A model generated the notes under the pieces. That model was not told the DNA's origin. It saw only the letters and a program-made list of their open reading frames with translations, and ran no database searches. The position numbers and the translations under genes were made by a program. Shown one piece after another: positions 2,848-18,668 of a stretch of 35,122 nt of DNA (the stretch's first letter is position 1; the number at the start of each line of letters is the position of its first letter). The stretch comes from an uncultured Holdemania sp. (lineage in GTDB: Bacteria; Bacillota_I; Bacilli_A; Erysipelotrichales; Erysipelotrichaceae). The stretch covers positions 1 through 35,122 of the forward strand of contig CAMQTJ010000021.1 in NCBI GenBank assembly GCA_947037125.1. The letters run 5' to 3'.

Positions 2848-3054
2848 TTGATTTCATACAACAAATTATGGAAAAAAATGATAGATTTAAACATGAAGAA
2901 AAAAGACTTGAAAGAACTTACAGGAATAGGGTCAACAACTATGACCAAGCTTGTTAAAAACAAATCAGTGTCTATGGATGTTATGGTGAAAATTTGTTTA
3001 GCATTAAAGTGTAATATTGGTGATATTATGGATGTGTTGATATGCGAAGATTAA
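2848..3054 (+). CDS. Small Cro/C1-type (HTH) transcriptional regulator of the R-M operon
   Basis: A 68-residue protein that is almost entirely one helix-turn-helix domain. Residues 17-60 read as KKKDLKELTGIGSTTMTKL followed by VSMDVMVKICLALKCNIGD, the pattern of YozG-like HTH_26 regulators. I choose TTG at 2848 because GGAGG (2836-2840) is 7 nt upstream and because the promoter -10 box at 2805-2810 puts the transcript start after the earlier in-frame ATG at 2758. The last 13 nt overlap the first methyltransferase gene, suggesting translational coupling. By position it probably times methyltransferase and nuclease expression, as controller proteins do, though it could equally regulate only itself. 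Confidence 0.82.
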   Translation: MISYNKLWKKMIDLNMKKKDLKELTGIGSTTMTKLVKNKSVSMDVMVKICLALKCNIGDIMDVLICED

Positions 3055-4109
3055 AAGGTATTTCACTTTTTTCTAGTGCAGGAATAGGAGAAACATTTTT
3101 TAAAGATGTTGGTATTGATATTGTTGTAGCTAATGAATTGTTGCCTAAACGTGCTGAATTATATCAAAAGATACATAAAGATTCAATTATGGTGTGCGGG
3201 GATATAACAGAAGAGAGTATTTTTAATAAAGTGATTAACAATTGTCCTGAGAAATTGGATTTTTTATTAGCCTCCCCACCATGTCAAGGAATGAGTGTTG
3301 CAGGTAAGAATCGTTGTCAAAATTCTATGGAGTCTGATGAACGGAATTACTTAATTAATTATGTATTAAAAATTATAAATAAAACTCATCCTGACTATGT
3401 TTTAATTGAAAATGTACCATCATTATTAAAATTAGAGTTGAATTACAAAAATCAATTTAGAACGATTTTAGATATTTTGAAATACGAGTTTGGTAGTTCA
3501 TATTCAATTGAGGGAAGAGTTGTAGATGCTTCAGATTATGGAGTTCCACAAACACGATTAAGAGCGATAATAAAAATGAATAAATTAAATAAAATTTGGA
3601 ACTGGGTTAATTTGGTAGAAAAAAAAGTTACTGTTGAAGAAGCGATAGGTTATTTGCCATCCTTAGAAGCTGGGGAAAAATCAGATATTAAATGGCATTT
3701 TGCTCGTAAACATATAGATAAAAATATTTTATGGATGAAAAATACACCAACAGGAATGACAGCATTTTCTAACCCTGTTCATTTTCCACAAAAAGATGAT
3801 GGGACAAGAATAAAAGGTTATGAGTCATCGTATAGACGAATTAGATGGGATGCACCATCGCCTACTATAACGATACGAAATGACTGCATAGCTTCACAAA
3901 GGAATGTTCATCCAGGGAGATTATTGAAAAATGGTATATATTCTGATGCGAGGGTACTTACTCCTTTAGAATTAATGATACTTACTTCATTACCTGTGGA
4001 TTGGAGTATTCCAGATGATACACCTGAAATATTAATAAGACAATGTATTGGCGAATCTATACCGCCATTAATGTTAAAACAAATTGTGGGAGGAATAGTA
4101 AATGAATAA
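3042..4109 (+). CDS. C5-cytosine DNA methyltransferase 1 of a type II R-M system
   Basis: Transfers a methyl group from S-adenosylmethionine to C5 of cytosine. It has 355 residues, a normal length. Conserved motifs are visible in order: motif I variant LFSSAGIGE near residue 10, catalytic SPPCQGMS with Cys81, ENVPSLL near 127, QTRLRAII near 176 (motif VIII QxRxR), and a C-terminal [19 protein letters not shown] block. The target-recognition region lies between motifs VIII and IX, about residues 190-290. It is clearly paralogous to the next gene, with the same motif spacing and stretches such as [20 protein letters not shown]. It overlaps both the regulator (13 nt) and the second methyltransferase (8 nt), so the set is one operon. 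Confidence 0.93.
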
Positions 4110-5166
4110 AATAAAGGCGATTTCTTTATTCGCAAGTGCGGGTATAGGTGAATTATTGATTGATCAAACAAACATTGATGTTGTTGGTGCAAACGAACTA
4201 TTACAAAAACGAGCAGAATGTTATAGTTTTTTTCACCCGAACACTGAAATGTATTGTGGAGATATAACAGAGGAAAAAACAAAAGATTATGTAGTAAATA
4301 TGGCGAAAAAATATAATGTAAAAATGTTAATTGCGACACCGCCTTGTCAAGGATTTAGTACGTTAGGAAAAAATAAAGTTCAAACTCAATTCGTAAAAGA
4401 TAGACGAAACTTTCTTATTTTAGATGTATTTGAAATTATTGATAAACATGATTTTGATTATATTTTGATTGAAAATGTACCGAAATTTCTTGAAATGTTT
4501 TTCCCTTATGAAGATGATTTTTTTAAGATTAATGATATTCTTACTAATAAGTATTCAGAAGAATATAACATAGATATAGATGTTTTAAATGCAAAAGATT
4601 ATGGTGTTCCTCAATCTCGAGCTAGAGCCATAATAAAAATGTATAAAAAAAATTTAAATTGGTCTATGCCAATAAGTCAAAAGGAAATTAACATGGAAGA
4701 AGCTATAGGTCACCTTCCATCCTTGGAGTCGGGATGTGAATCTGACATTAAATGGCATACAGCCAAGGTTCAAAATGATAGAGCTATATTAGCACTAAGG
4801 CACACACCTACGGGTAAAAGCGCAATCATGAACGAAGTTTATTATCCTAAAAAAGAAGATGGTAGTAGGATTAAGGGATTCCATAACACGTTCAAGCGTA
4901 TGGTATGGGATCAACCTTGTCATGCAAGAACAACTTTTAGTGGAAGTATGAGTTCACATAATAATGTACATCCTGGTAGATTACTTGAAGATGGAACTTA
5001 TTCCGATGCAAGAGTATTGACTTTGCTAGAGACATTTATTGTTTCATCAATTCCGTCTAATATAGAGTTTCCCAAGAGGTCTTCGGACACATTTATTAGA
5101 ACCGTAATAGGGGAATCTATACCTCCAAAACTATTGCTTGAAGTTCTAAGAACGATTGGGAGGTAG
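4102..5166 (+). CDS. C5-cytosine DNA methyltransferase 2 of a type II R-M system
   Basis: Second C5-cytosine methyltransferase, 354 residues. Motif I variant LFASAGIGE, catalytic TPPCQGFS with Cys82, [15 protein letters not shown] and the C-terminal [19 protein letters not shown] block are present. The backbone matches the preceding enzyme almost motif for motif, so this is a tandem duplication. The two differ around residues 240-290 (for example [19 protein letters not shown] here against [19 protein letters not shown] there), where target recognition is expected. Two C5 enzymes are known in systems with asymmetric sites such as HgaI, where each modifies one strand. The gene ends 9 bp before the nuclease gene. 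Confidence 0.93.
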
Positions 5167-5175
5167 GATTGATTT

Positions 5176-6636
5176 ATGGCTGTTATGGTAGAAAGAAACA
5201 AATGGATTTTATATAAACATACATCTAGTTACGAAATTATAAAAGCAGTCGCTTTAGATGTGAAAAATAGTTGTAAAACAGATATTTCAGATGCAGAGAA
5301 GTATCGTATGCAAGAGAGATTAACAGCATTAAATCTTTATAAAACTAGAAATAGTAAAGAAAAGCCACTAGACTCCATGAATCATAGGGTCAATACACTT
5401 GCATATTGGATGTTTGGTTATAAATATAGAGTTAATGGAGTTAATAAATTCATTTATAGTCCGTTAGGAAACCTATTTCTTAAAAATATAAGTGACGATG
5501 AGAAAACTAGAAAGATATTTATTGCGATGTTATTTGCTATGCAATTCCAACACCCACATAGTAGTACAAATAAAGAGTTTCAATTATATCCCTTTAGATT
5601 AATTTTTAAATTGCTTTGTGACAAAAGATTAGAATACAAGATATATAATCAAGAAGTCGCATATTTAATTGTTTTTGAAACTACTATGTCAGAGGATAAG
5701 TATGAGAAACTTGTAAATAGCATATTAGAATTAAGAAAGTGTTCTAATGAAGAAATGTCAAATAAATTCAAACTAGACGAGCATACTTATGTAAACTCAG
5801 TTTATGAGTGGGAGTATTATACGCAAACTTTTTTAGAAAAAATAGGAATACTAAATAGAGTTAATGGTGAAATTATTTGTAAATTATATCATCCTACAAA
5901 AACAAACAGCAAAAGTAGGCCAACAGGAAGAAAGGCAACTAACGGATATATAACATTAAAAAGTGATATAAAACCATTTGTACAACTAATGCTAAATAAT
6001 TATTCTTTATTTACCTGTCCCATTAAGCTGAATGATGAGGAACGAATGTCTATTGATTGCATCAAAGAAATATATAGTTTTTATCCCAAAATACTATTGG
6101 ATGAGATAGGGGAATCAAACGAATTGACAACACTTCTGCAACTTCCAAAATTAATTGAGCAATATTCAAATAATCCAAATAATAGTACAGCATATTTATT
6201 TGAAAATGTCTTAACTGATGGATTTAATATGTTCTATAATGTAGATGCTACTACAAGAGGGGGATCATCACACACTGATATTGAATGTTTATATATTACG
6301 AAAAGCAAAAAATTTGCAGTAGAGTCTAAATCCACAGCTAATAAACTTTTAGGTATTAATGCAGGTAGACTACGTGAACATAGAGATGAAATTGGTGGCG
6401 AATATACCATAGTTATAACACCTAGATATGTGCCGGCAACAAAACGCGATATTATAGGAACCCCAATAGTAATTATATTAGCTAATACATTTGCTGAGTA
6501 TCTTTATAATCATATTTACAACGACATAAGAGATATAGATTTTGAAGATTTCTCATCAATTATTACAGATAATTTAGGCAAAGATATAAGTCATTTAATA
6601 TCAAATATGACATTAGAAAAGTTTGCAACAACCTAA
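5176..6636 (+). CDS. PD-(D/E)xK type II restriction endonuclease, possibly type IIS
   Basis: A 486-residue protein directly downstream of the methyltransferase pair, so very probably the cognate endonuclease. The C-terminal third contains a nuclease core: a Gly/Ser-rich GGSSHTD with Asp368 and then AVESKS with Glu383 and Lys385, giving D-x14-E-x-K, followed by RLREHRDEIGGEYTIVITPR. The N-terminal ~330 residues are mostly helical and may carry DNA recognition. Architecture (recognition first, cleavage last) and overall look recall AlwI-type type IIS enzymes, but the paired C5 methyltransferases recall HgaI, so the family is not settled. I choose ATG 5176, after GGGAGG at 5158-5163. ATG 5185 is a possible alternative. 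Confidence 0.8.
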   Translation: MAVMVERNKWILYKHTSSYEIIKAVALDVKNSCKTDISDAEKYRMQERLTALNLYKTRNSKEKPLDSMNHRVNTLAYWMFGYKYRVNGVNKFIYSPLGNLFLKNISDDEKTRKIFIAMLFAMQFQHPHSSTNKEFQLYPFRLIFKLLCDKRLEYKIYNQEVAYLIVFETTMSEDKYEKLVNSILELRKCSNEEMSNKFKLDEHTYVNSVYEWEYYTQTFLEKIGILNRVNGEIICKLYHPTKTNSKSRPTGRKATNGYITLKSDIKPFVQLMLNNYSLFTCPIKLNDEERMSIDCIKEIYSFYPKILLDEIGESNELTTLLQLPKLIEQYSNNPNNSTAYLFENVLTDGFNMFYNVDATTRGGSSHTDIECLYITKSKKFAVESKSTANKLLGINAGRLREHRDEIGGEYTIVITPRYVPATKRDIIGTPIVIILANTFAEYLYNHIYNDIRDIDFEDFSSIITDNLGKDISHLISNMTLEKFATT

Positions 6637-6722
6637 TTAAAATATATGTATAAAAATCATGAAATAATTTTCGATAAATTATATATATTGCTTGTCAAAA
6701 ACTAATTTAAAAGGAGAAAAAT

Positions 6723-7601
6723 ATGTTCGAGAACAATTATACAGTGGATTTCATTGATATAGGTGCAAAATATGGTTCTATTAAAATTAAAAATATAGTA
6801 TTCAATCCTATTGATATCGAAAATAATATCTTAAAAATAATTTTTGATGACAAAAATATAATGCATATGTTTGAAGAAAATAATTTAGATAGTTTCAATA
6901 GAAAAAATATTTATAGTAGATTTATTCCCCAAGAAAAAATGTTGCCTTCAACAAAAGAATATATAAAGAAAGGTATAGAAAAAAACAAAAATTTCTATTC
7001 TTTCTTGGCCGAAGGTATATTAGCACTTGTTTTTCGTGATATTTATGGATATGAGCTTTCGAAAGGTGTTATTGATGTTACTGAAACATTAACATATACT
7101 CATACTGGAGTTGATAGTTGTATGTATAATCTTGAAAATAGTATTATAGTCTTAGGTGAAGCAAAATTTTACGAAAACTTAAAAGGAGGTATTAAATCAA
7201 TAATTAATGACTTTACTAAAAAAGGTATAATAAGTAAATTATCGAGTCTTCAAAAAATTGCGAAATCCAATAAAATTTCTAATAGTATAGTTATTAAAAA
7301 TTTAGAAAATAATAATTATGACGGTTTATCGCTAGAACAATTTTTAAATCAAAAAATATTTTTTGTAGGCTTTGTTATGCATTCTAATATTGAATCTGAT
7401 TTAAAGTACGATGATAGCTTTTATTCAACGTATAAATTATCAACAAAAGGTATAAAAGATAATATTGATGTTAAATTAGGTAAAAAAATTAATAAAGGTA
7501 ACTATGAAATTATCATGGTACATTTACCAATAAATGAAAAAAAAGATTTAATTGAAAAAGTAATAGATACAGCATTAAATAAGTATAGAGAGGTGAAGTA
7601 A
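6723..7601 (+). CDS. hamA: Hachiman anti-phage system nuclease HamA (DUF1837)
   Basis: A 292-residue protein with a DUF1837-type PD-(D/E)xK core: Glu97 in FLAEGILALVFRD, Asp131 in HTGVDSCMYN, and Glu146/Lys148 in IIVLGEAKFY. In Hachiman and the related AbpAB system, HamA is the DNA nuclease effector held in check by the HamB helicase until phage DNA intermediates appear. The partner gene starts on the base after this gene's stop, which is strong support. AAGGAG is 8 nt upstream of the ATG. The 86-bp gap after the restriction gene lacks a clear terminator, so the gene could be read through from the R-M operon or have its own promoter; I could not define one. Confidence 0.88.
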   Translation: MFENNYTVDFIDIGAKYGSIKIKNIVFNPIDIENNILKIIFDDKNIMHMFEENNLDSFNRKNIYSRFIPQEKMLPSTKEYIKKGIEKNKNFYSFLAEGILALVFRDIYGYELSKGVIDVTETLTYTHTGVDSCMYNLENSIIVLGEAKFYENLKGGIKSIINDFTKKGIISKLSSLQKIAKSNKISNSIVIKNLENNNYDGLSLEQFLNQKIFFVGFVMHSNIESDLKYDDSFYSTYKLSTKGIKDNIDVKLGKKINKGNYEIIMVHLPINEKKDLIEKVIDTALNKYREVK

Positions 7602-9698
7602 ATGAACTATGATGATTTTACGAAGCAAAGAAAAGCTTTACTAATGGATTTAGATGCAGGTGAAAATCCATCAATTTTAGAATTAGGTATGTATGATCTA
7701 TCACCATATTTTAAAGATGACTTTAATGTTAGCCTAACTGAATCTATTATGTTAAATAAAAATCTAGTTCGAGGAGTGAGACATTTAAATAGTGAAATTT
7801 ATTTCGCTCCGCCACAACAAGAAGCTTTTGAATCGTTAAATAAAGAAAATAAAATAATTATTTCTGCACCAACATCATTTGGTAAAACATTGATTATAAA
7901 AGAATTTATTTACAGACAAAAACCAACAAAAGTTGTATACATTGTACCAACAAATGCATTAGCTTATGAACTTGAAAAAAGTTTCAAAAATAATACAAAC
8001 TTTGAAGATTATAATATTTTTGATAAAGCCGAGAAAGAACCTATTTTAGGTTCAAACATTGATAATAAAAAATCTTTATTTATAGGAACTCAAGAAAAAT
8101 TTCTAGAACTTGCTCAGCATGTTTTTGCAAATATAGATTTATTTGTAATTGACGAAGCTTACAAACTACAAGAATCAACACAATGTCAAAGAGGATACAA
8201 GTTATCAGAAACATTTCTACAAAGTATAAGCAAAAAAGCAAAAAAAATAGTTCTGCTTTCACCTCAAGCAAAGTTTGAAGGTTTTGAGAAATACGAGTTT
8301 TTTACATTTGAGAGTAATTTTAATTCTGTTGAGAAAAATTTTAAAGTATTATCTTCTGATGAATTATTTAATAATTTATTGAAAAAAGGTCTACAAGAAA
8401 AAAGTATTCTATTTTGCAAAAGTCCTATGCAAATTAATGGAGCATTTAATTATCTTGAGAAAAACCTAAAATCAACAAATTATAATTCATTATTAGTTAA
8501 TCAACTTGCAACTGATGTTCACCCAGAATGGACAGTTGTAAAATTGTTGTCCAGAGGAATTTTAACTCATCATGGACAAATGCCTAAATATGTACAAAAT
8601 AAAATGATTAATTTATTTAATTGTGATGATAACTATAATTTACTATTAGGTACTAACTCTATCTCAGAAGGCATAAATACATCTACAAAAAATCTTTTTA
8701 TCAATCCAGAATATAGAGATGTTAATAAAAATTTATTGTTAATAAAAAACACCATAGGTAGAGCAGGGAGATTAGGTCAATATCCAATCGGACATATTTT
8801 CTCTACTCAAAATATAGAAGATTTAGTTACAAAACAAATAATTATAGAATTATCTGTCTCAAAAGATGATGATTTATTAGAGTTAGAGAATACAAAAGAT
8901 GAATTTAAAATTAAAGAGTTTTCGGAGCAATTTAATTTAGATTTTGATTTTTGCAAAGAATTACTAGGTAAGTATAAAATTTCGTTAAGTAGGTTAGTTA
9001 AAATCTTAAATGTACTAAAAGAAAATCAAAAATTTCCATCAATAACAAATTTACCATATATGTCTAAAAAGACATTTGAACATGATTATTCAACGGATCC
9101 GAATAATGATCAAATTTTGGTCAAAGCATATCTGCAATTATATTACTTAGGAGATGAACGACAAAAAAAATTTTTGAACTCTTTCGAAGATGTAATAGGT
9201 TATTTTATTTTTGCAAAAAATAAAGATAATGATAAAATTGCTAAAAAAAAGAAAAAAGCACCTAAGAATAAACAGTATTTGCATTCTGAAATAATAAATT
9301 TATATATGCAGTTTAAATATTCTACTTTCGAATATTTAATATTACCAATTGTTAATATTGGGGTTGATATTTATTCTGAAAATAACGAATGGGAATTCGG
9401 AAAAAATGTTATAGAATCTTTGCAAGAAGTTAAAAGTAAATATTATAAAAAAGTTTTTGGCAACTTAAATATTGATAGCTTATCTGAACAACATTTGAAA
9501 ATTATTACAACACTCAAAGACTATGGAGTAACAAGTGTATTAAAAAATATTAATATATCTATGTTAACTGAAATTGATGAAAAATTAAATGTTAGATATT
9601 CAACAATAGATATTTTATGCACAATAACTCACCTTTCAAATAGTTCCTCGAAAAATAAAAAGTTATATATAGAAATTGTTAATAAATATATTAATTAG
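7602..9698 (+). CDS. hamB: Hachiman anti-phage system helicase HamB
   Basis: Superfamily 2 helicase of 698 residues. Visible motifs: APTSFGKT (89-96, Walker A), VIDEAYKL (182-189, a DEAY version of the DExH box), LLSPQAKF (218-225, motif III position), THHGQMPKYVQ (322-332), TNSISEGIN (351-359, motif V) and IGRAGRLG (385-392, motif VI). The C-terminal ~300 residues are Lys-rich and helical with no motif I recognise. HamB is thought to survey DNA and release HamA when it meets aberrant ends. The ATG directly follows the hamA stop codon, with GAGGTG about 8 nt upstream. It is the last gene of the defence island; the next plus-strand gene is 645 bp away. Confidence 0.88.
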   Translation: MNYDDFTKQRKALLMDLDAGENPSILELGMYDLSPYFKDDFNVSLTESIMLNKNLVRGVRHLNSEIYFAPPQQEAFESLNKENKIIISAPTSFGKTLIIKEFIYRQKPTKVVYIVPTNALAYELEKSFKNNTNFEDYNIFDKAEKEPILGSNIDNKKSLFIGTQEKFLELAQHVFANIDLFVIDEAYKLQESTQCQRGYKLSETFLQSISKKAKKIVLLSPQAKFEGFEKYEFFTFESNFNSVEKNFKVLSSDELFNNLLKKGLQEKSILFCKSPMQINGAFNYLEKNLKSTNYNSLLVNQLATDVHPEWTVVKLLSRGILTHHGQMPKYVQNKMINLFNCDDNYNLLLGTNSISEGINTSTKNLFINPEYRDVNKNLLLIKNTIGRAGRLGQYPIGHIFSTQNIEDLVTKQIIIELSVSKDDDLLELENTKDEFKIKEFSEQFNLDFDFCKELLGKYKISLSRLVKILNVLKENQKFPSITNLPYMSKKTFEHDYSTDPNNDQILVKAYLQLYYLGDERQKKFLNSFEDVIGYFIFAKNKDNDKIAKKKKKAPKNKQYLHSEIINLYMQFKYSTFEYLILPIVNIGVDIYSENNEWEFGKNVIESLQEVKSKYYKKVFGNLNIDSLSEQHLKIITTLKDYGVTSVLKNINISMLTEIDEKLNVRYSTIDILCTITHLSNSSSKNKKLYIEIVNKYIN

Positions 9699-10343: not shown

Positions 10344-10874
10344 ATGAAATTTGAAATCGTTGGAAAAAACATTGCCATTACTGATGGTATGAGAACAAAG
10401 ATCGAAACTAAGTTATCTTTTTTAGAAAAATATTTAATGATTGGTGAAGATACTGTTGCACGTGTTGTTGCAAGAGTTTATCCTAATAGCCAAAAAATAG
10501 AAATCACAATCCCTACACGAATCGGTATTTTAAGAACTGAAGTTACACATGAAGATTTATATGCTGCAATTGATTTAGCTATTGATAAATTAGAAGATCA
10601 AATCAGAAGACAAAAAACAAGATTATCTAAAAAACATAAAGAAAAATTGGCAGTTTCATTTATTAAAGAAATTGAAGAAAATGATGATACTATAAAAGAT
10701 GAAATTGTTAGAACTAAATCTATTAAACCTGATCCAATGGATGTGGAAGAAGCAATTATGCGTATGGAAATGCTTAATCATTCATTCTTTATCTTTACAG
10801 ATTTTGATACTGAAGCAATTTCTGTTGTTTATAAACGTAAAGATGGTGGTTATGGTTGTATCGAGTGTGAATAA
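10344..10874 (+). CDS. hpf: Long-form ribosome hibernation promoting factor
   Basis: Binds the 30S subunit in stationary phase and joins ribosomes into inactive 100S dimers. At 176 residues it is the long form: an N-terminal S30AE/YfiA domain (about 1-105, MKFEIVGKNIAITDGMR at the start) and a C-terminal dimerisation domain (about 120-176) containing DPMDVEEAIMRMEMLNHSFF and ending VVYKRKDGGYGCIECE. AGGAGG is about 8 nt before the ATG. A TATAAT at 10311-10316 is a possible -10 box without a convincing -35. A GAAA-loop terminator follows immediately, so it is monocistronic. Confidence 0.95.
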   Translation: MKFEIVGKNIAITDGMRTKIETKLSFLEKYLMIGEDTVARVVARVYPNSQKIEITIPTRIGILRTEVTHEDLYAAIDLAIDKLEDQIRRQKTRLSKKHKEKLAVSFIKEIEENDDTIKDEIVRTKSIKPDPMDVEEAIMRMEMLNHSFFIFTDFDTEAISVVYKRKDGGYGCIECE

Positions 10875-10895
10875 AAAGCCGAAAGGCTTTTTTTT
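10875..10895 (+). terminator. Intrinsic terminator of hpf
   Basis: AAAGCC-GAAA-GGCTTT stem-loop (10875-10890) with a T run to 10895, starting at the hpf stop codon. Confidence 0.9.
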
Positions 10896-10914
10896 AATTT
10901 TAATTAAACAAATA

Positions 10915-10947
10915 CTGACAAAATAGTCGTATAACATGGTATATACT
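10915..10947 (+). promoter_or_regulatory. Candidate Spo0A-dependent promoter of spoIIGA-sigE
   Basis: CTGACA (10915-10920) and TATACT (10942-10947) are separated by 21 bp, longer than the normal 17. The spoIIG promoter of Bacillus subtilis is known for a similarly long spacer (about 22 bp) that needs phosphorylated Spo0A. Weak 0A-box-like sequences overlap it: TTTTGTCAG on the minus strand at the -35 element and ATAGTCGTA in the spacer. The spacing and sequences are seen; Spo0A control is inferred. Confidence 0.45.
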
Positions 10948-10969
10948 TTCACACAGAAGGGAGATAAAG

Positions 10970-11674
10970 GTGATTAGTTATATTGAAGTTACTATTATTT
11001 ATTCGTGTTTGATGAGTGTTTTTAGCTATTTAATTGTTATGAAAGATAGTCAATTAAAAATGATAAATTATAAAATTATTCTTATAATTTTACTAATAAC
11101 TATCATAAATTCATTACTTTATAACAATAGTTTTATTGTTTATTTATTTGATATATTAATGTGTATATCAATATTTAAATATCAATTAAAAAATATTGTG
11201 AAGTTTTATTTAATTAGATTATTTTTTATGTCTATTAATATTACTCTATTTGATTGTTTGGTTATTAACTTACAGTATTTCTTTTATTATGATAGTATTT
11301 TATGGGCTTTTGGAATATTAATATTTCTATTTATAACCTATATTATATGTCTTTTATTTATCGATATATTAAATAATTCTAAACTAGTTGTGCCTTTTAA
11401 TTTATTTATTGATAATCAAAAGCTGAATTTATTTGGTTTTATAGATACTGGAAATAATTGTTTGTATCAAAAAAAGCCGGTTATATTTATTGATAATAAA
11501 TATTGGATAAGACAAAAAGATAGTGTAATAATTACTTGTCAAACACTAAATAAAACAAGTGATATGTTGGGGTATAGTGCTCAAATAGAAATCAATAAAC
11601 ATATACATGATGTCTATGTTGTGTACATTGGTAATCTTGAATATGATTGTATTTTGAATCATCAAATAGTATAA
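10970..11674 (+). CDS. spoIIGA: SpoIIGA, pro-sigma-E processing aspartic protease
   Basis: Septum-located membrane protease that cleaves pro-sigma-E in the mother cell after asymmetric division. The N-terminal ~133 residues hold about five hydrophobic segments. The cytoplasmic domain carries LFGFIDTGNNCL with Asp159 in the aspartic-protease DTG motif. At 234 residues it is shorter than the roughly 309-residue B. subtilis protein, mostly at the C-terminus. The GTG start at 10970 is set by GAAGGGAG 7 nt upstream. Its TAA overlaps the sigE ATG (TAATG), so the two are translationally coupled. Sequence similarity is low, as usual for SpoIIGA; the DTG motif, topology and sigE neighbour carry the call. 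Confidence 0.88.
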   Translation: MISYIEVTIIYSCLMSVFSYLIVMKDSQLKMINYKIILIILLITIINSLLYNNSFIVYLFDILMCISIFKYQLKNIVKFYLIRLFFMSINITLFDCLVINLQYFFYYDSILWAFGILIFLFITYIICLLFIDILNNSKLVVPFNLFIDNQKLNLFGFIDTGNNCLYQKKPVIFIDNKYWIRQKDSVIITCQTLNKTSDMLGYSAQIEINKHIHDVYVVYIGNLEYDCILNHQIV

Positions 11675-12369
11675 TGAGAAAAATTATAAATTGGATTAAA
11701 CAATTATTTATTAAACCTAAACAAACTCATTTTATTCAAGGTAGTGAAATATTACCTCACCCATTGAGTAAAGATGATGAACATGCGGCATTATTAAAGT
11801 GGAGAGACAAAGACTTACAGGCTCGTGATTTATTAATTGAACATAATTTGAGGTTAGTTGTTTATATTGCGAAAAGATATGAAACTAATCCAATATTTAT
11901 GGAAGATATTATAAGTATTGGTACCATAGGATTGATTAAGGCGGTTAATACCTTTAATATGGATAAAAATATCAAACTTGTTACTTATGCTTCTAGATGC
12001 ATTGAAAATGAGATATTAATGCATTTGCGTAAAAAGAATAGGCGTAAGCATGAATTGTCATTTGATGAACCTTTAAATGTTGATTATGATGGAAATGAAT
12101 TGCTGTTAAGTGATATTTATGGAACACCTGATAATACAGTTACTAAACAATTTTATGATAGTGAAAATAAAAAAGATTTATTAATTGCTTTAGAGGGTTT
12201 AGATGAAGAAGAAAAAATGATCTTAAAACTGCGTTATGGTATTGAGTGTGAACAAAAAACTCAAAAAGACATCGCTATTAAACTTGGAATATCACAATCT
12301 TATATATCTCGTTTAGAAAAAAAGATATTATATAAACTTAAAACTCAATTATTTGATAAAATACAATAA
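11674..12369 (+). CDS. sigE: RNA polymerase sporulation sigma factor sigma-E (pro-form)
   Basis: Mother-cell-specific sigma-70 family factor, 231 residues. The N-terminus is a pro-sequence of about 27 residues ending in HFIQGSEILP (19-28), equivalent to the cleavage region YIGGSEALP in B. subtilis. Region 2 follows (NLRLVVYIAKRYE, EDIISIGTIGLIKAVNTFN, TYASRCIENEI), then FDEPLNVDYDGNELLLSDI, and region 4 with TQKDIAIKLGISQSYISRLE. I choose ATG 11674 rather than the in-frame ATG 27 nt upstream, because it overlaps the spoIIGA stop and gives the expected pro-sequence length. With spoIIGA it shows that the organism has the engulfment-stage sporulation pathway. Confidence 0.96.
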   Translation: MRKIINWIKQLFIKPKQTHFIQGSEILPHPLSKDDEHAALLKWRDKDLQARDLLIEHNLRLVVYIAKRYETNPIFMEDIISIGTIGLIKAVNTFNMDKNIKLVTYASRCIENEILMHLRKKNRRKHELSFDEPLNVDYDGNELLLSDIYGTPDNTVTKQFYDSENKKDLLIALEGLDEEEKMILKLRYGIECEQKTQKDIAIKLGISQSYISRLEKKILYKLKTQLFDKIQ

Positions 12370-12480: not shown

Positions 12481-12503
12481 ATATATATTAAGGGGTGTTA
12501 TAT

Positions 12504-13199
12504 ATGGGGAATAAAATATTGGTAGTGGATGATGAAAAAGAAATTGCAGATTTAATTGAATTATACTTACAAAATGATGGATATGATGTTTATAAATTTT
12601 ATAATGCTACTGATGGATTAAATTGTTTAAAACATCATGAAATATCATTGGCTATATTAGATGTTATGTTGCCCGATATGAATGGGTTTAAATTGTGTCA
12701 AAAAATAAGAGAAAACTATTTATTTCCTATTATAATGCTTACTGCAAAAGTAGAAAATACGGATAAGATTTTAGGGCTTACGATGGGTGCTGATGATTAT
12801 ATTACAAAGCCATTTAATTCATTAGAAATGGTGGCAAGAGTTAAAACACAATTAAGAAGATATACACGTTATAATCAAACAACTAATGTTATAGTCAGTA
12901 AAAATGAATATGATCATGGTGGTTTATTTGTATCAAAAGATAGTCATAAGTGTTTTATGTATAAAGATGAATTGCAGCTTACTCCAATTGAATTTAATAT
13001 ATTATGGTATTTGTGTTCTAAAAAGGGCGTGGTAGTATCATCAGAAGAATTATTTGAAGTAGTGTGGCAAGAGAAATACTTGGATAACAATAATACAGTT
13101 ATGGCACATATTGCAAGGCTTAGAGAGAAAATGAATGAGCCTGCACGTAAACCAAAGTTTATTAAGACTGTATGGGGAGTGGGGTATACAATTGAGTAA
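12504..13199 (+). CDS. vanR: VanR response regulator
   Basis: OmpR/PhoB-type response regulator of 231 residues. The receiver domain (about 3-115) has the acidic pair DD (9-10), phosphoacceptor Asp53 in LAILDVMLPDMNG, Thr80 in IIMLTAK and Lys102 in DYITKPF. The C-terminal winged helix (about 145-231) has LTPIEFNILWYLC and VMAHIARLREKMN, ending KFIKTVWGVGYTIE. I choose ATG 12504, 8 nt after AAGGGG, rather than the in-frame GTG at 12495 that overlaps that site. It is adjacent to vanS and begins a van cluster, so it likely activates its own promoter and the vanW promoter through shared boxes. Confidence 0.9.
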   Translation: MGNKILVVDDEKEIADLIELYLQNDGYDVYKFYNATDGLNCLKHHEISLAILDVMLPDMNGFKLCQKIRENYLFPIIMLTAKVENTDKILGLTMGADDYITKPFNSLEMVARVKTQLRRYTRYNQTTNVIVSKNEYDHGGLFVSKDSHKCFMYKDELQLTPIEFNILWYLCSKKGVVVSSEELFEVVWQEKYLDNNNTVMAHIARLREKMNEPARKPKFIKTVWGVGYTIE

Positions 13200-14346
13200 G
13201 AATACAATAAATAATAGAAATGATAAACATGAATATAATGATTATAATCAGTTAAAAAAGATTATTTTAAAAAAGGCAATATTAGTTAATGGATTAATTA
13301 TATTAGGTGCCATAATTCTCTTTAATATGTTTTTTTATGATAATATTGCAAATTTTATTGTAGGATTATTATGTTTTATTTTTAGGTGGAGTTTTGAGGA
13401 ATCCCTTAGTATTTATAATCTTGTTATTCGTAGTAATATTGATTTAATTATCAATTTATTATTATTTATATTGTTTATGACTACTTTGATTATATGTATA
13501 AATGAATTTATTAATTACTTAAGTGAAATAAATAGAGGTATTTCAGAACTTACACATGATAATGATAATGAAATAGAACTAATGCCAGAATTATTAACTA
13601 CTCAAAATAAACTAAATGAAATTAAACGTAATATTGCAACTAATAAGCATGCGGCACAAGAGGCTGAACGTAAAAAAAATGACTTAGTAGTTTATCTTGC
13701 TCATGATTTAAAAACACCACTTACATCAGTCATTGGTTATATTACATTAATTAAAGATGAAAAAAATATTAGTGAGGAAACTAGAAATAAATATTTGAAT
13801 ATCACACTTGATAAGTCATTAAGACTTGAAGAATTGATTAATGAATTTTTTGATATAACACGCTTTAATTTAACTAATTTAGTACTAGAATATAAAAAGA
13901 CTAATATTAGTAGAATGTTGGAACAAATATGTAATGAATTTACACCTATAATGCAAGAAAAAAATATCACATTTGAACTTGAATTAGATGAAGCTGTGGA
14001 AATTGTTTGTGATAGTGATAAGTTATTAAGGGTGTTTGATAATCTTTTAAGAAATGCCTCTAATTATAGTTATAATGATAGTAAGGTAATTGTGAAACTT
14101 AAAAAAAGAAATGATTATATTGATATAATGATTAAAAATCATGGTAAGACCATTCCAAAAGAAAAACTAGTACATGTATTCGATCAGTTTTTTAGGCTTG
14201 ATTCATCACGTAATACAGTTAGTGGTGGTGCAGGTTTAGGTCTTGCAATCGCAAAAGAGATAATTGAAAGACATAAGGGTATAATTGGTGTTAAAAGTGT
14301 TGATGAAAGTATTACTTTTATTATTAAATTACCAATAAAGTCATAA
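13192..14346 (+). CDS. vanS: VanS sensor histidine kinase
   Basis: Membrane histidine kinase of 384 residues paired with VanR. Two transmembrane helices (about 26-48 and 83-107) enclose a short extracytoplasmic stretch of about 35 residues. A linker/dimerisation region follows, then the H box LAHDLKTPLTSVIGY with His171, the N box DNLLRNASNYS, and the G boxes FFRLDSSRNTVSGGAGLGLA. All catalytic boxes are intact. I choose TTG 13192, which overlaps the vanR stop and lies about 8 nt after GGAGTGGGG; longer in-frame starts would run through vanR. The short sensor domain matches VanS proteins of vanB/vanG type better than large-sensor kinases. Confidence 0.88.
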   Translation: MSKNTINNRNDKHEYNDYNQLKKIILKKAILVNGLIILGAIILFNMFFYDNIANFIVGLLCFIFRWSFEESLSIYNLVIRSNIDLIINLLLFILFMTTLIICINEFINYLSEINRGISELTHDNDNEIELMPELLTTQNKLNEIKRNIATNKHAAQEAERKKNDLVVYLAHDLKTPLTSVIGYITLIKDEKNISEETRNKYLNITLDKSLRLEELINEFFDITRFNLTNLVLEYKKTNISRMLEQICNEFTPIMQEKNITFELELDEAVEIVCDSDKLLRVFDNLLRNASNYSYNDSKVIVKLKKRNDYIDIMIKNHGKTIPKEKLVHVFDQFFRLDSSRNTVSGGAGLGLAIAKEIIERHKGIIGVKSVDESITFIIKLPIKS

Positions 14347-14396: not shown

Positions 14397-14555
14397 GAAA
14401 AATGAAACTTATTATTTTAGTACAATATATGTACAAGGTAATAAGTTTTTTTTACCTTACAACACTGTAAGTTATTAGCTGATATTGTAAGTTAGAGTTA
14501 TGGTTAGCGTTATTTGTTTAATATAAAATATATATGTAAGATGGAGGCAGTTTAT

Positions 14556-15374
14556 ATGACAAGAATTAGAGTTACACAAATATTACCGTTTTTATTACCA
14601 TTAAGAAAGAAACAAAAATACTTATTTTTTGATATAGCACAAAAATTAGATAAAAATACCTATGCAAAAAAAAGAATTCAACAATTATATGAACATAAAT
14701 ATTTTCAGACTTACAGTGTTTTATATAATTATGATACAGGATTTGATATGGTTTACCAAAGTAATAAAGTAAATAATCTTAAAATCGTAGCTAAAAAATT
14801 AAATAAATTGATTATTAAGCCAAATGAAACATTTTCTTTTTGGACAGCTATTAAAGATGTGAATAGTAATGATGAATATTTAGATGGTTTAGTTATGAAA
14901 GATGGAAAACTTACAATTTGTAAGGGTGGTGGGATTTGTCAGATAAGTAATTTATTGTATTGGATGTTTCTACATACACCAATGAATATTGTGGAAAGAA
15001 AAGGGCATGCAACAAAGGATTTTTATGACCCATTTGATGATGGTATTAAAGGTGTTGATGCTACAGTTGCGAAAGGCTGGATTGATTTAAAAGTTAAAAA
15101 TAATACTGATGATACTTATCAAATTAATTTTGATTTTGATGATGAAAATATAATTGGTCAAATATATTGTGATAAAAAATTGAATATTTCATATAAAATC
15201 ATAAATGAAAATTGTATCTACTACAGTAAAAATAATAATATATATCAAAGTGTTGATGTTATTAAAAAAATGATGAAAGGCAATGATGCAATGAGTAAAG
15301 AATTATTGTATACCAATATTTGTAATATTAAATATGAGTTAGCAAGTGATATTAAAGTTGAAAAAAGGGGATAA
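14556..15374 (+). CDS. vanW: VanW family protein
   Basis: A 272-residue VanW-family protein, first gene of the resistance operon. Its precise role is unknown in all van clusters. Family hallmarks are visible: LIIKPNETFSFWTAI (85-99), the conserved KGGGICQISNLLYWM with GGGICQ at 124-129, then ERKGHATKDFYDPFDDGIK with its Asp-rich core, and GWIDLKVKNNTDDTYQI. There is no signal peptide and no obvious transmembrane segment. I choose ATG 14556, 8 nt after GGAGG (14543-14547); an in-frame ATG at 14514 lacks a ribosome binding site. It is 3 bp upstream of the ligase gene. Confidence 0.9.
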   Translation: MTRIRVTQILPFLLPLRKKQKYLFFDIAQKLDKNTYAKKRIQQLYEHKYFQTYSVLYNYDTGFDMVYQSNKVNNLKIVAKKLNKLIIKPNETFSFWTAIKDVNSNDEYLDGLVMKDGKLTICKGGGICQISNLLYWMFLHTPMNIVERKGHATKDFYDPFDDGIKGVDATVAKGWIDLKVKNNTDDTYQINFDFDDENIIGQIYCDKKLNISYKIINENCIYYSKNNNIYQSVDVIKKMMKGNDAMSKELLYTNICNIKYELASDIKVEKRG

Positions 15375-15377
15375 GTT

Positions 15378-16424
15378 ATGAAAAAATTAAATATAGTAGT
15401 TTTATTTGGAGGATGTTGTAGTGAGTATAGTGTTTCATTAATGTCAGCTTATGCTCTACTTAATAATATAGATACAGATAAGTTTAAACCAATTATGATT
15501 GGCATAACTAAAAAGGGGCAATGGTTACATTTTAATGATGATTTAAATATGATTATTGAAGATACATGGCATACGTCTATCACCAATAAAATGGTTAGTA
15601 TATGTGCTAATAGGGATCAACATCAATTTATCATTGTTGATGATTTAGATATTAAAACGATATCATTTGATGCTGTATTTGTAATGTTACATGGTAAAAA
15701 TGGTGAAGATGGAACTGTTCAAGGGATGCTTGAACTATTTAATATACCTTTTATTGGTTGTAATACATTGTCATCAGCATTATGTATGGATAAAGATAAG
15801 GCTCATAAAATTGTTAGGTGTGAAGGAATTAAAGTACCTAAGTCATTAGTTTTTAATCAATATTGTGATCATTTTAAAATAATTGATTCAATAGCAGTTT
15901 TAAATTATCCATTATTTATAAAACCTGTAAAAGGGGGTTCTTCTATTGGTATTACAAAAGTTAATGACTTCAGTATGTTAAGTGATGCAATAAATAGTGC
16001 TTTTGAATATGACAATGAAATAATTATTGAAGAAAATATTAAAGGCTTTGAAGTAGGTTGTGCAATTATGGGGAATGATGAATTATTTGTAGGTGAAGTT
16101 GATGAAATTCAAATAAGTGATAACTTTTTTGACTTTAATGAAAAATATCATACTCAAAGTGCTATAACTCATTTACCTGCAAGATTAGATGATAAGAAAA
16201 TTGCTGAAATTAAAAGTATTGCGAAAACAATATATCGTAGTTTAGGTTGTTCAGGTTTTGCAAGAGTAGATATGTTTATTTGTGATAATGGTGAAATAGT
16301 ATTTAATGAAGTTAATACAATACCAGGATTTAGTGACCATAGTCGTTTTCCAAATATGATGAAAGCTAAAAATATTGAATTCAAAGATTTAATTACAAGA
16401 TTAATAGAGTTAGGAGTGAATTAA
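15378..16424 (+). CDS. vanG: D-alanine-D-serine ligase, VanG type
   Basis: ATP-grasp ligase of 348 residues that joins D-Ala to D-Ser, giving peptidoglycan precursors with low vancomycin affinity. Features: N-terminal VVLFGGCCSEYSVSLMSAYA, HGKNGEDGTVQG (105-116), CMDKDKAHKIV, KPVKGGSSIGITKV, and C-terminal FARVDMF and VFNEVNTIPGFSDHSR for ATP/Mg binding. The omega-loop EKYHTQSA (255-262) fits the EKYxxxxA type of D-Ser ligases (VanC, VanE, VanG) and not the D-Lac ligases. The similarity to VanG of Enterococcus faecalis recalled from memory is high across the protein (for example TLSSALCMDKD and FNEVNTIPGF). The gene overlaps vanXY by one base. Confidence 0.92.
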   Translation: MKKLNIVVLFGGCCSEYSVSLMSAYALLNNIDTDKFKPIMIGITKKGQWLHFNDDLNMIIEDTWHTSITNKMVSICANRDQHQFIIVDDLDIKTISFDAVFVMLHGKNGEDGTVQGMLELFNIPFIGCNTLSSALCMDKDKAHKIVRCEGIKVPKSLVFNQYCDHFKIIDSIAVLNYPLFIKPVKGGSSIGITKVNDFSMLSDAINSAFEYDNEIIIEENIKGFEVGCAIMGNDELFVGEVDEIQISDNFFDFNEKYHTQSAITHLPARLDDKKIAEIKSIAKTIYRSLGCSGFARVDMFICDNGEIVFNEVNTIPGFSDHSRFPNMMKAKNIEFKDLITRLIELGVN

Positions 16425-17188
16425 TGTATAGTTTAAAATTAAAGAAAAATACAATCTATCGTGGTGACTTAATACTAGTAAATAGTACATATGCATATCA
16501 TGAAATAAATGAGTATAGTAATAATAGTGTTAGTGTTGGTGGTAATATTTTTTTAAACAATAATGTTGCAATAGCATTAGCTAAAATTATGTTAGCGATT
16601 AATGCTTTTGATAAAATTAGTTTTGTGAGTGGACTTAGAAGTAATGTTGAACAAAGTGAAATTTATAATAAATCTTTACTTGAAAATGGAGAAGACTTTA
16701 CAAAAAAATATGTTGCTTTACCAAATCATAGTGAACATCAAACAGGTATGGCAATTGATTTAGGGGTTAAAAAAGAAAATATTGATTTTCTTTGTCCACA
16801 ATTTTTAGATACAGGAATTTGTAAAGAATTTTTAAACAATTGTCACAATTATGGTTTCATCAGACGTTATCCACAAGATAAAGAAATGATCACTTTAATT
16901 GCATATGAGCCATGGCATTTTCGCTATGTTGGTTATCCACATTCAAGTATAATCAAAAAATTAAAAATCACTTTAGAAGAGTATCACAATTTAATTCAAA
17001 AATATTCTTATAACACCAATAATTATATATATAAAAGTTGCAACCTAATATTTGAAATTGGTTATTTAAAAGCAAGTGATTTAGCTTATACGCAAATAGA
17101 TGTGGAAAATAAAGATTTTTTTTCAATATCAGGTGATAATCAAAATGGTTTTATTATTACAAAGTGGCGTGAATTTAATGAAAAATAA
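16424..17188 (+). CDS. vanXY: D,D-dipeptidase/D,D-carboxypeptidase VanXY
   Basis: Zinc peptidase of 254 residues that removes D-Ala-D-Ala dipeptide and terminal D-Ala, so that only D-Ser-ended precursors persist. The active site is complete: SEHQTGMAIDLG gives zinc ligands His105 and Asp112, and YEPWHFRYVG gives catalytic Glu162 and ligand His165. VSGLRSNVEQSEIYNKSL holds the conserved Arg and Glu-Gln that bind substrate. There is no signal peptide or membrane anchor, so it is cytoplasmic as expected for VanXY rather than membrane VanY. The ~70-residue C-terminal tail after PHSSIIKKLKITLEEY is present in VanXY-G-type proteins. The ATG overlaps the vanG stop codon (TAATG). Confidence 0.9.
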   Translation: MYSLKLKKNTIYRGDLILVNSTYAYHEINEYSNNSVSVGGNIFLNNNVAIALAKIMLAINAFDKISFVSGLRSNVEQSEIYNKSLLENGEDFTKKYVALPNHSEHQTGMAIDLGVKKENIDFLCPQFLDTGICKEFLNNCHNYGFIRRYPQDKEMITLIAYEPWHFRYVGYPHSSIIKKLKITLEEYHNLIQKYSYNTNNYIYKSCNLIFEIGYLKASDLAYTQIDVENKDFFSISGDNQNGFIITKWREFNEK

Positions 17189-18668
17189 TATTAGTAAAAA
17201 ATATTTAAATACAATTACTTTATTAATTATATTTTCACTCTTTTTAACACTAGTACAAATTGGTGGTAATAGTATTTCATTTAATCAAACAAATATTATA
17301 TTGGGGTTGTTGGCAACATTATTTTTATATCAAATTATTTTATTTTGGGGTGTAAAATCATATAAACAAAGTTTTATATTAATATTACTTACATATTTAT
17401 TTATTCCATTTTTTATATTATTTATAACATTTATTAGTAAATTATTTGACTTAAATGATATTTTTATATCAAATTCATTTAATTATAATCTAATTGTATT
17501 TGGTTTATCATTTATTTGTGCTGATTTAATTAGTAAAGTTAAATGGTCTAATAACACATGTTATCAAAAATCTAGGGCATGGGTTGAATTAGATATGAAA
17601 GCCTTCGATCATAATATAAATGTACTTAAAAGTAAAATAAATAATGATTGTAATATAATGGGGGTTATTAAGGCTAATGCTTATGGACATGGTGATGTGA
17701 TTATTGCGAAAGCATTGAATAAGAATGGTATTAGATTTTTTTGTGTAGCTACTATTTTTGAGGCGATTAAACTTAGAAAAGATAAGATAACAGGTGAAAT
17801 ACTTATTTTTGGTTATACTCCACCTGAATTGTTTTATCTGCTTAAAAAATATGATTTAACTCAAAGTATAATGGATTATGAATATGCAATTAAATTAAAT
17901 GATTATAATAAAAATATTAAAGTTCATTTAGCACTTGATACTGGAATGCACAGAGTTGGAATTAATTGTGATAATTTTGATGATATAAAAGCTATTTTCA
18001 AATTAAAAAAACTGAAGGTAAAAGGTATATATACTCATCTTTGTGCCAGTGATTCACAAGCTTTAAGTGATCGAAAATTTAGTATTGACCAATGTGATAA
18101 AATAATTGGTATTAGTGATCGATTAAAAGAATTAAATTTCAAGTTTAAATTACATATTATTAGTACTTGTGGTTTAATCAACTATCCCGATTATGCAATG
18201 GATTATGTAAGAATAGGTATTGCTTTATTTGGAGTTACAAGTAAGCAAGATGATATGACACCTGATTATGATTTACACCCAGTATTAAGCTTAAAAGCAC
18301 GAGTAATCAGTATAAAAAATTTAAAAGTTAATGAGGGTGCTGGATATAGTTGGGATTTTATTGCCCAAAAAACAAGTGTTATAGCAACGGTTTCAATTGG
18401 TTATGCTGATGGGATATCACGTAGTCTTAGTAAAAATGGTTATGTTTTAATTAATGGTAAAAAAGCTAAAATAGTTGGTAAGATGTGTATGGATTTAATG
18501 TTAGTTGATGTGAGTGGTATTGATGTGAACATTTTTGATATTGTTACACTTATTGGGAAAGATGAAGGTTTACAAATAAGTGTCTATGACATAGCTAATC
18601 AAACAAATACAATTACAATTGAAACAGTAAGTGCACTATCTGATAGATTAGAAAGAGTAATAAAATAA
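17178..18668 (+). CDS. vanT: VanT-like serine racemase with a short membrane domain
   Basis: PLP-dependent racemase that supplies D-Ser (496 residues). The N-terminal ~125 residues have about four transmembrane helices (near 11-30, 40-58, 65-88, 104-118). The racemase domain starts near residue 133 with SRAWVELDMKAF; it has the PLP lysine in GVIKANAYGHG, DTGMHRVG, the catalytic tyrosine in GAGYSWDF and MCMDLMLVDVSG. Known VanT proteins are about 700 residues with ten or more helices, so this is a compact form. Ile481 (in NTITIETVS) aligns by eye with Tyr354 of alanine racemase, which is Asn in VanT of vanG. I choose ATG 17178, overlapping vanXY by 11 nt. A plain alanine racemase activity cannot be excluded. 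Confidence 0.87.
   Translation: MKNNISKKYLNTITLLIIFSLFLTLVQIGGNSISFNQTNIILGLLATLFLYQIILFWGVKSYKQSFILILLTYLFIPFFILFITFISKLFDLNDIFISNSFNYNLIVFGLSFICADLISKVKWSNNTCYQKSRAWVELDMKAFDHNINVLKSKINNDCNIMGVIKANAYGHGDVIIAKALNKNGIRFFCVATIFEAIKLRKDKITGEILIFGYTPPELFYLLKKYDLTQSIMDYEYAIKLNDYNKNIKVHLALDTGMHRVGINCDNFDDIKAIFKLKKLKVKGIYTHLCASDSQALSDRKFSIDQCDKIIGISDRLKELNFKFKLHIISTCGLINYPDYAMDYVRIGIALFGVTSKQDDMTPDYDLHPVLSLKARVISIKNLKVNEGAGYSWDFIAQKTSVIATVSIGYADGISRSLSKNGYVLINGKKAKIVGKMCMDLMLVDVSGIDVNIFDIVTLIGKDEGLQISVYDIANQTNTITIETVSALSDRLERVIK

Follow-up and report, generated by a model that had tools for sequence, protein, structure and literature searches.

A compact VanT with a four-helix membrane anchor and isoleucine at the specificity position in a vanG-type cluster of an uncultured Holdemania sp.

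The stretch of DNA analysed here (the window; 35,122 nucleotides, contig CAMQTJ010000021.1 of assembly GCA_947037125.1) comes from a gut bacterium and carries a vanG-type cluster. The last gene of this cluster, vanT, encodes an uncommon form of a familiar enzyme. Its product joins a complete PLP racemase to a membrane part that is homologous to the last four of the ten helices of the acyltransferase-3 (AT3) domain of full-length VanT, and harbors isoleucine (Ile481) and threonine (Thr330) at two positions of the cofactor pocket. We consider it probable that the protein is the serine/alanine racemase of this cluster, held by a four-helix AT3 remnant and still feeding VanG. In the history that we propose, an ancestral VanT with the usual ten-helix AT3 domain would have lost its first six helices and, with them, the catalytic motifs of AT3, and the four remaining helices would have been eroded at their conserved residues. 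The resulting anchor, with its N- and C-termini inside, would tether a complete cytoplasmic racemase to the membrane while presumably moving neither acyl groups nor serine any more; the racemase would continue to supply D-Ser and some D-Ala to VanG, and Ile481 and Thr330 may alter the shape of the pocket near the PLP phosphate, probably making the enzyme less serine-selective. The remnant reading concerns a single sequence. Another AT3 protein is encoded elsewhere in the genome (L036) and could in principle act in trans.

The vanG-type cluster and its racemase

The cluster is ordered vanR-S-W-G-XY-T (Table 1), and the presence of a VanG ligase above its profile cut-off together with VanXY and VanT genes places it among the vanG-type D-Ala-D-Ser clusters. 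The VanXY-G score lies below the allele-level cut-off of 500 bits, and neither vanU nor vanY was recognised among the cluster open reading frames scanned with profiles. The vanT gene was read from the ATG at 17178, which produces an 11-nt overlap with the end of vanXY, to the stop at 18668; the open frame reaches upstream to 17100 (522 aa). A promoter scan yielded fewer promoter-like sites than were found in shuffles.

Table 1. Features of the van cluster and of the VanT protein (window coordinates).
Feature	Position	Strand	Basis
vanR-like response regulator	12495..13199	+	NF033117, 388.5 bits (cut-off 350, above)
vanS-like histidine kinase	13135..14346	+	NF033091, 380.2 bits (cut-off 400, below)
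vanW-like	14514..15374	+	PF04294; NF033128, 350.6 bits (cut-off 365, below)
vanG D-Ala--D-Ser ligase	15378..16424	+	NF000091, 503 bits (cut-off 495, above); EKY motif
vanXY-like D,D-peptidase	16424..17188	+	NF000149, 225.6 bits over 250/254 positions
vanT (compact), four-TM anchor and PLP racemase, 496 aa	17178..18668	+	NF033131 vanT-G-Cterm, 469.8 bits
Membrane anchor, residues 1-131, putative AT3 remnant (last four of ten helices)	17178..17570	+	HMM, alignment, hydropathy
Predicted helix, residues 7-27	17196..17258	+	AlphaFold model of anchor alone
Predicted helix, residues 35-57	17280..17348	+	AlphaFold model of anchor alone
Predicted helix, residues 63-89	17364..17444	+	AlphaFold model of anchor alone
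Predicted helix, residues 100-122	17475..17543	+	AlphaFold model of anchor alone
Racemase domain, residues 133-496	17574..18665	+	Pfam, NCBIfam, structure match
Lys165, PLP lysine (Alr Lys39)	17670..17672	+	Lys in 67/67 and 15/15 alignment rows
Thr330, at the position of the phosphate-binding Ser of Alr (Ser204) and VanT	18165..18167	+	Alignment
Tyr390, catalytic tyrosine (Alr Tyr265)	18345..18347	+	Alignment
Ile481, at the Tyr354 (Alr) / Asn (VanTG) position	18618..18620	+	HMMER, MAFFT

Upstream of the cluster lie hpf, a gene in the spoIIGA position and a sigE-like gene, a trio also present in three congeners, in which no VanT-G-type protein was found, the sole match being the housekeeping alanine racemase (Alr). 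The cluster looks lineage-specific because, in a wider region of two congeners, the open reading frames of at least 100 aa downstream of sigE match no window protein. It is situated between the hpf/spoIIGA-position/sigE block (10344-12369) and a GntR/PTS-like block (18775 onward); two congeners have other genes after sigE. Elsewhere in the window, positions 3042-9698 hold two adjacent cytosine-methyltransferase-like reading frames and a helicase-like one, recognised by eye only and perhaps constituting a restriction-modification or defence island, and a 107-aa reading frame of repeated VGSIVG-like units lies in a DNA repeat at 32865-33188 (reverse strand).

In the VanT protein, Pfam identifies Ala_racemase_N at residues 139-354 and Ala_racemase_C at residues 369-494. 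The VanT-G catalytic model NF033131 is passed above its cut-off of 460 bits and outscores all other models, including the alanine racemase model TIGR00492, which is also passed (312.6 bits, cut-off 168), and the best PDB match of the racemase domain is VanTG (4ecl; Z 48.7, rmsd 1.7, 45% identity). Equivalents of Alr Lys39, Tyr43, Arg136, His166, Arg219, Tyr265, Tyr284, Cys311, Met312 and Asp313 are kept, so that the PLP lysine, the catalytic tyrosine and the cofactor residues of a fold-III racemase are all in place; the Lys129 position is Ala, as in 12 of the 67 other VanT rows. These features bear on the possibility that vanT is decaying, its truncation and isoleucine reflecting relaxed selection in a cluster that no longer gives D-Ser. 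Consistent with decay, the AT3 motifs are gone and the protein deviates at 12 of the 80 columns conserved in the VanT set, a count among the highest; but vanT keeps an open frame that follows closely on vanXY, none of the ten catalytic and cofactor residues listed above is lost, and the full-length AlphaFold model is confident (mean pLDDT 87.5), and we judge decay improbable.

A single Ala_racemase_C match was found in the assembly (G000). VanT as the sole racemase of the genome was nevertheless ruled out by a housekeeping alr fragment at the start of contig C37 (L048:1-110), where 36 codons encode an Alr C-terminus with Tyr, the gene being cut by the contig edge. One gene further on, the neighbours match the congener region downstream of alr. 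Because C37 starts inside alr and continues with congener-like neighbours, the organism has a housekeeping Alr, and racemase counts in this assembly mislead since that gene is cut by the contig start.

The membrane anchor and its distribution

The initial annotation described a short N-terminal part with about four helices, against ten or more in known VanT enzymes. Four helices were predicted by AlphaFold both for the anchor folded alone (mean pLDDT 78.7; Table 1) and in the full-length model (residues 5-29, 35-56, 62-89 and 100-125, with residues 1-60 less certain), and a hydropathy scan gave four hydrophobic regions, the fourth barely above threshold. The ten helices of known VanT agree with PMC6182600, which places those of VanTG in residues 1-342, and with PMC12423673.

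A membrane HMM was built on 17 VanT membrane domains, all taken from full-length proteins (345 positions). Residues 13-126 of the window VanT scored 34.5 bits over its positions 221-334, compared with a maximum of 8.5 bits among 1000 composition shuffles. A new membrane domain was ruled out by this homology. The full VanT membrane domain displays ten main hydropathy peaks (19, 48/56, 87, 133, 155, 200, 229, 256, 284 and 320) besides two weak ones, and the last four of the ten are present in the window VanT. In tblastn searches with the window VanT the alignment extends beyond the racemase and covers membrane sequence of full VanTs as well, starting at residue 22 against G091 and residue 35 against G112, and the anchor is colinear with full membrane domains, the retained helices showing 15-24% identity. 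Judged from sequence, the anchor is an ordinary AT3 domain reduced to the last four of its ten helices. Because an even number of helices is retained, the racemase would stay cytoplasmic; the Lys and Arg residues in the counted segments (none in the outer loops, one at the N-terminus, one in the inner loop and two in the C-terminal linker) form a weak but consistent positive-inside pattern, in agreement with N- and C-termini inside.

A complete ten-helix AT3 domain is absent. PF01757 (Acyl_transf_3) has no match in the window VanT and scores 85.4 bits in the VanT of the syntenic locus L187, and the canonical membrane-bound VanT model NF033132 reaches 326.7 bits against a cut-off of 900, aligning residues 10-492 with profile positions 216-694. 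An R-X10-H motif in TMH1 and an RXXR motif in TMH3 are required for AT3 function (PMC9833829, excerpt), and the region that would hold both is missing from the window VanT. Among the 17 full VanT membrane domains, R-X10-H was found by pattern in 15 and HP..R and RxxSMY in all; at the sites of the latter two the window VanT reads FNQTNI and YLFIPFFILFIT, both motifs being substituted (FNQTNI and IPFFILFIT). A fold search with the isolated four-helix model recovered no solved AT3 structure, its two hits both having E > 1.

Mis-assembly of the contig could also have produced an in-frame deletion, and the assembly is indeed fragmented (135 contigs), with one alr cut by a contig edge. The retained helices, however, are diverged to the low identity given above, with AT3 motif residues replaced, unlike a recent artefact, and vanXY is intact up to vanT; we regard an assembly artefact as very improbable.

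In a survey of 272 genomes of the family, 90 had a match at E 1e-60 or better. The open frames at these matches measure 361-435 aa (too short for a membrane domain), 522 aa (the window), 611-619 aa (one genus, g27) or 708-721 aa, leaving the window as the sole frame between 435 and 611 aa, and the same length gap appears among the matches listed for 294 genomes of the order. No second four-helix VanT was found in the overlapping samples of 294 order, 395 class, 392 phylum and 272 family genomes. No compact VanT was noticed in phage and viral collections, where matches were mostly Alr-like; a first scan of genome contigs found no relatives; and neither a four-helix nor an Ile VanT appeared in listings of an open-licence literature that does not include the main VanT structure paper. 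The proposal of a distinct VanT subtype holds in part: the architecture is distinct and the specificity residue is not Asn, but the anchor appears to be an ordinary AT3 remnant known from one sequence. "Subtype" is too strong a word because no second four-helix VanT occurs in any survey, and a recurring compact subtype was rejected on the order, class, phylum and family samples.

The 611-619 aa frames were also considered as candidate compact VanTs and set aside, the one examined (L176:4362-6179, reverse strand, G077) being a 605-aa VanXY-VanT fusion in which Pfam VanY precedes alanine racemase N and C and the specificity residue is Pro; in G175, G191 and G196, of the same genus as G077, the frame open at the match measures 616-619 aa.

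In relatives the AT3 domain may be fused to the racemase, encoded by a separate gene upstream or downstream, or not found nearby, and fusion to a membrane domain is absent from many related vanG-linked VanTs. Domain loss is thus frequent among relatives, and the fused four-helix stump was seen once. The closest syntenic counterparts, two loci of the same family, L187 (G091) and L188 (G112), share the synteny R-S-W-G-XY-T and encode VanTs of 709 aa. Several other layouts were observed. The vanG-type clusters of L100, L173, L175, L213 and L217 read vanW-vanG-vanT, without vanXY beside vanT, those of L100, L175 and L217 also having vanR-vanS. At L218:6595-7620 (reverse strand, G770) vanXY and the racemase gene flank a separate VanT AT3 gene that is divided into two neighbouring parts (123 and 216 aa), the split being a fission, a frameshift or an assembly error. 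The 1009-aa VanT of Acetatifactor muris (L088:2144-5170) has an acidic low-complexity linker of ~250 residues between AT3 and racemase.

The specificity position

HMMER aligned the window segment NTITIETVS without gaps to ESITNELLS of VanTG (4ecl), which, together with MAFFT, confirms the earlier assignment of Ile481 to the position of Tyr354 in Alr and Asn in VanTG; the corresponding segment is ETIPQEVFS in the Alr 4y2w and TIPYE in congener alanine racemases. In the MAFFT alignment this column is Asn in 62 of the 67 non-Tyr, non-window rows and Tyr in all 15 Alr rows kept, with the row groups defined by the residue at the column itself. Grouping by a VanG-like neighbour gave 61 distinct loci, 59 of them scorable, with 51 Asn, 3 Ile, 2 Asp, 1 Val, 1 Leu, 1 Pro and no Tyr. 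Neither the usual Asn of VanT-G (which is not formally defining) nor the Tyr of Alr is therefore found at this position in the window VanT. The three Ile sequences are the window, L100 and L192; L217, of the L100 lineage, is a further one beyond the 59 scored, and L070, unscored by BLAST, has Leu by eye. Ile is not tied to the compact domain, because it recurs in the soluble-VanT lineage of L100, L192 and L217.

Tyr354 contacts the PLP phosphate and is Thr or Ala in the racemases Lyr and Bar and Asn in VanT, and Ser204 (Thr245 in Lyr) is another phosphate contact (PMC3485190, excerpt); the replacement Y354N turns Alr into a bifunctional Ala/Ser racemase (PMC5025676, excerpt). By analogy with this literature, a substrate balance of its own is plausible for the Ile481 enzyme, as the initial annotation suggested. 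Thr replaces Ser204 in 3/3 Ile rows (L100 and L192 being sisters) and in the one Leu row, but in 0/72 Asn rows and in 0/5 of the remaining rows without Tyr (2 Asp, Val, Pro, His). Among Tyr rows it does so in 2/70, and 5/70 have Asn at the Ser204 position.

These residues could instead accompany a reversion to a mainly alanine or broad-specificity racemase, which would enlarge the D-Ala pool and form D-Ser only in minor amounts. The alanine racemase model is passed, the Asn tied to Ser activity is absent, and Ile481 and Thr330 resemble the Tyr354 and Ser204 replacements (Thr, Thr) of the lysine-preferred Lyr (PMC3485190, excerpt). Against this, VanT-G is the top-scoring model and VanTG the closest structure, a VanG ligase above its cut-off is co-encoded, the genome has a separate housekeeping alr with Tyr (the 3' fragment at the start of C37), and VanTs are reported, in the title of Arias 2000, as active on both Ser and Ala. 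We consider such a reversion rather unlikely, and prefer a serine/alanine racemase that still serves VanG.

Loss of the AT3 domain and of Asn coincide in the alignment. The residue is not Asn in 0/48 AT3-linked and 6/17 unlinked rows (Fisher p 1.5e-4, ancestry ignored), the window with its partial AT3 being counted as unlinked (5/16 vs 0/48 without it); L023, L062 and L079 were dropped since a contig edge hides the neighbour, and the tree set already excluded L070, L085 and L130. Every non-Asn vanG-linked case lacks a linked intact AT3, and the Ile and Leu cases also have Thr for Ser204. On a quick tree the specificity residue changed six times, and a phylogenetic pairs test on six starred pairs had no power (averages: same way 0.9, opposite 0.0, ties 5.1), so a correlation beyond shared ancestry was not adopted. 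In a careful tree the window branched next to the L014 group with weak support (86/57), and the L100 lineage next to L016 (84/93). AU tests rejected neither a single clade of Ile rows (p 0.82 and 0.30) nor a single clade of all aliphatic rows (p 0.61 and 0.14), the second value of each pair coming from a set with one more row. It is doubtful that loss of intact AT3 and loss of Asn are coupled in vanG-type clusters, yielding a second functional VanT class of which the window, with its AT3 stump, would be an intermediate. If they were, VanTs without a linked full AT3 would repeatedly swap Asn for an aliphatic residue together with a Ser-to-Thr change in the PLP-phosphate cup, and this class would have its own substrate range.

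Significance and comparison with known systems

The window VanT belongs to the VanT-G catalytic family but lacks both marks of the canonical membrane-bound VanT, the full AT3 domain and Asn. From the resistance mutations that map to the AT3 domain of VanTG, it has been argued that this domain has a function not considered so far (PMC12423673, excerpt), and evolution experiments in C. difficile fixed vanT mutations whose reintroduction did not reproduce resistance (PMC11326576, excerpt). A natural VanT without a usable AT3, beside syntenic full-length ones, would inform the need for AT3 in D-Ser-based resistance, and the Ile481/Thr330 pair offers a natural comparison for serine versus alanine discrimination in this racemase fold.

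VanTG of the E. faecalis vanG cluster (4ecl) shares the racemase fold and sequence and a vanG-type operon with vanW, vanG and vanXY, but has ten helices (PMC6182600, excerpt) and Asn, in contrast to the four helices, Ile481 and Thr330 of the window VanT. The L187 and L188 proteins have the gene order of the window, yet are 709 aa long with a full AT3 and Asn.

The split VanT of the vanL type (NF033133) consists of separate membrane and racemase proteins. Here the likeness is that the two parts vary independently of each other, with a separate AT3 gene in many relatives, whereas the window anchor is fused and comprises only a third of an AT3 domain. The soluble Ile-type VanTs (L100 from Solobacterium sp. 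RGIG5894, L192 and L217) share Ile with the window, and L100 and L192 further resemble it in having Thr for Ser204 and Ala for Lys129; unlike the window, this group lacks a membrane part and a vanXY beside vanT, and L100 and L192 have CTD in place of CMD. Lastly, Geobacillus Alr (1sft; TIGR00492) has the fold, PLP lysine and catalytic tyrosine in common with the window VanT, which differs from it in the replacement of Tyr354, the membrane anchor and the van operon context.
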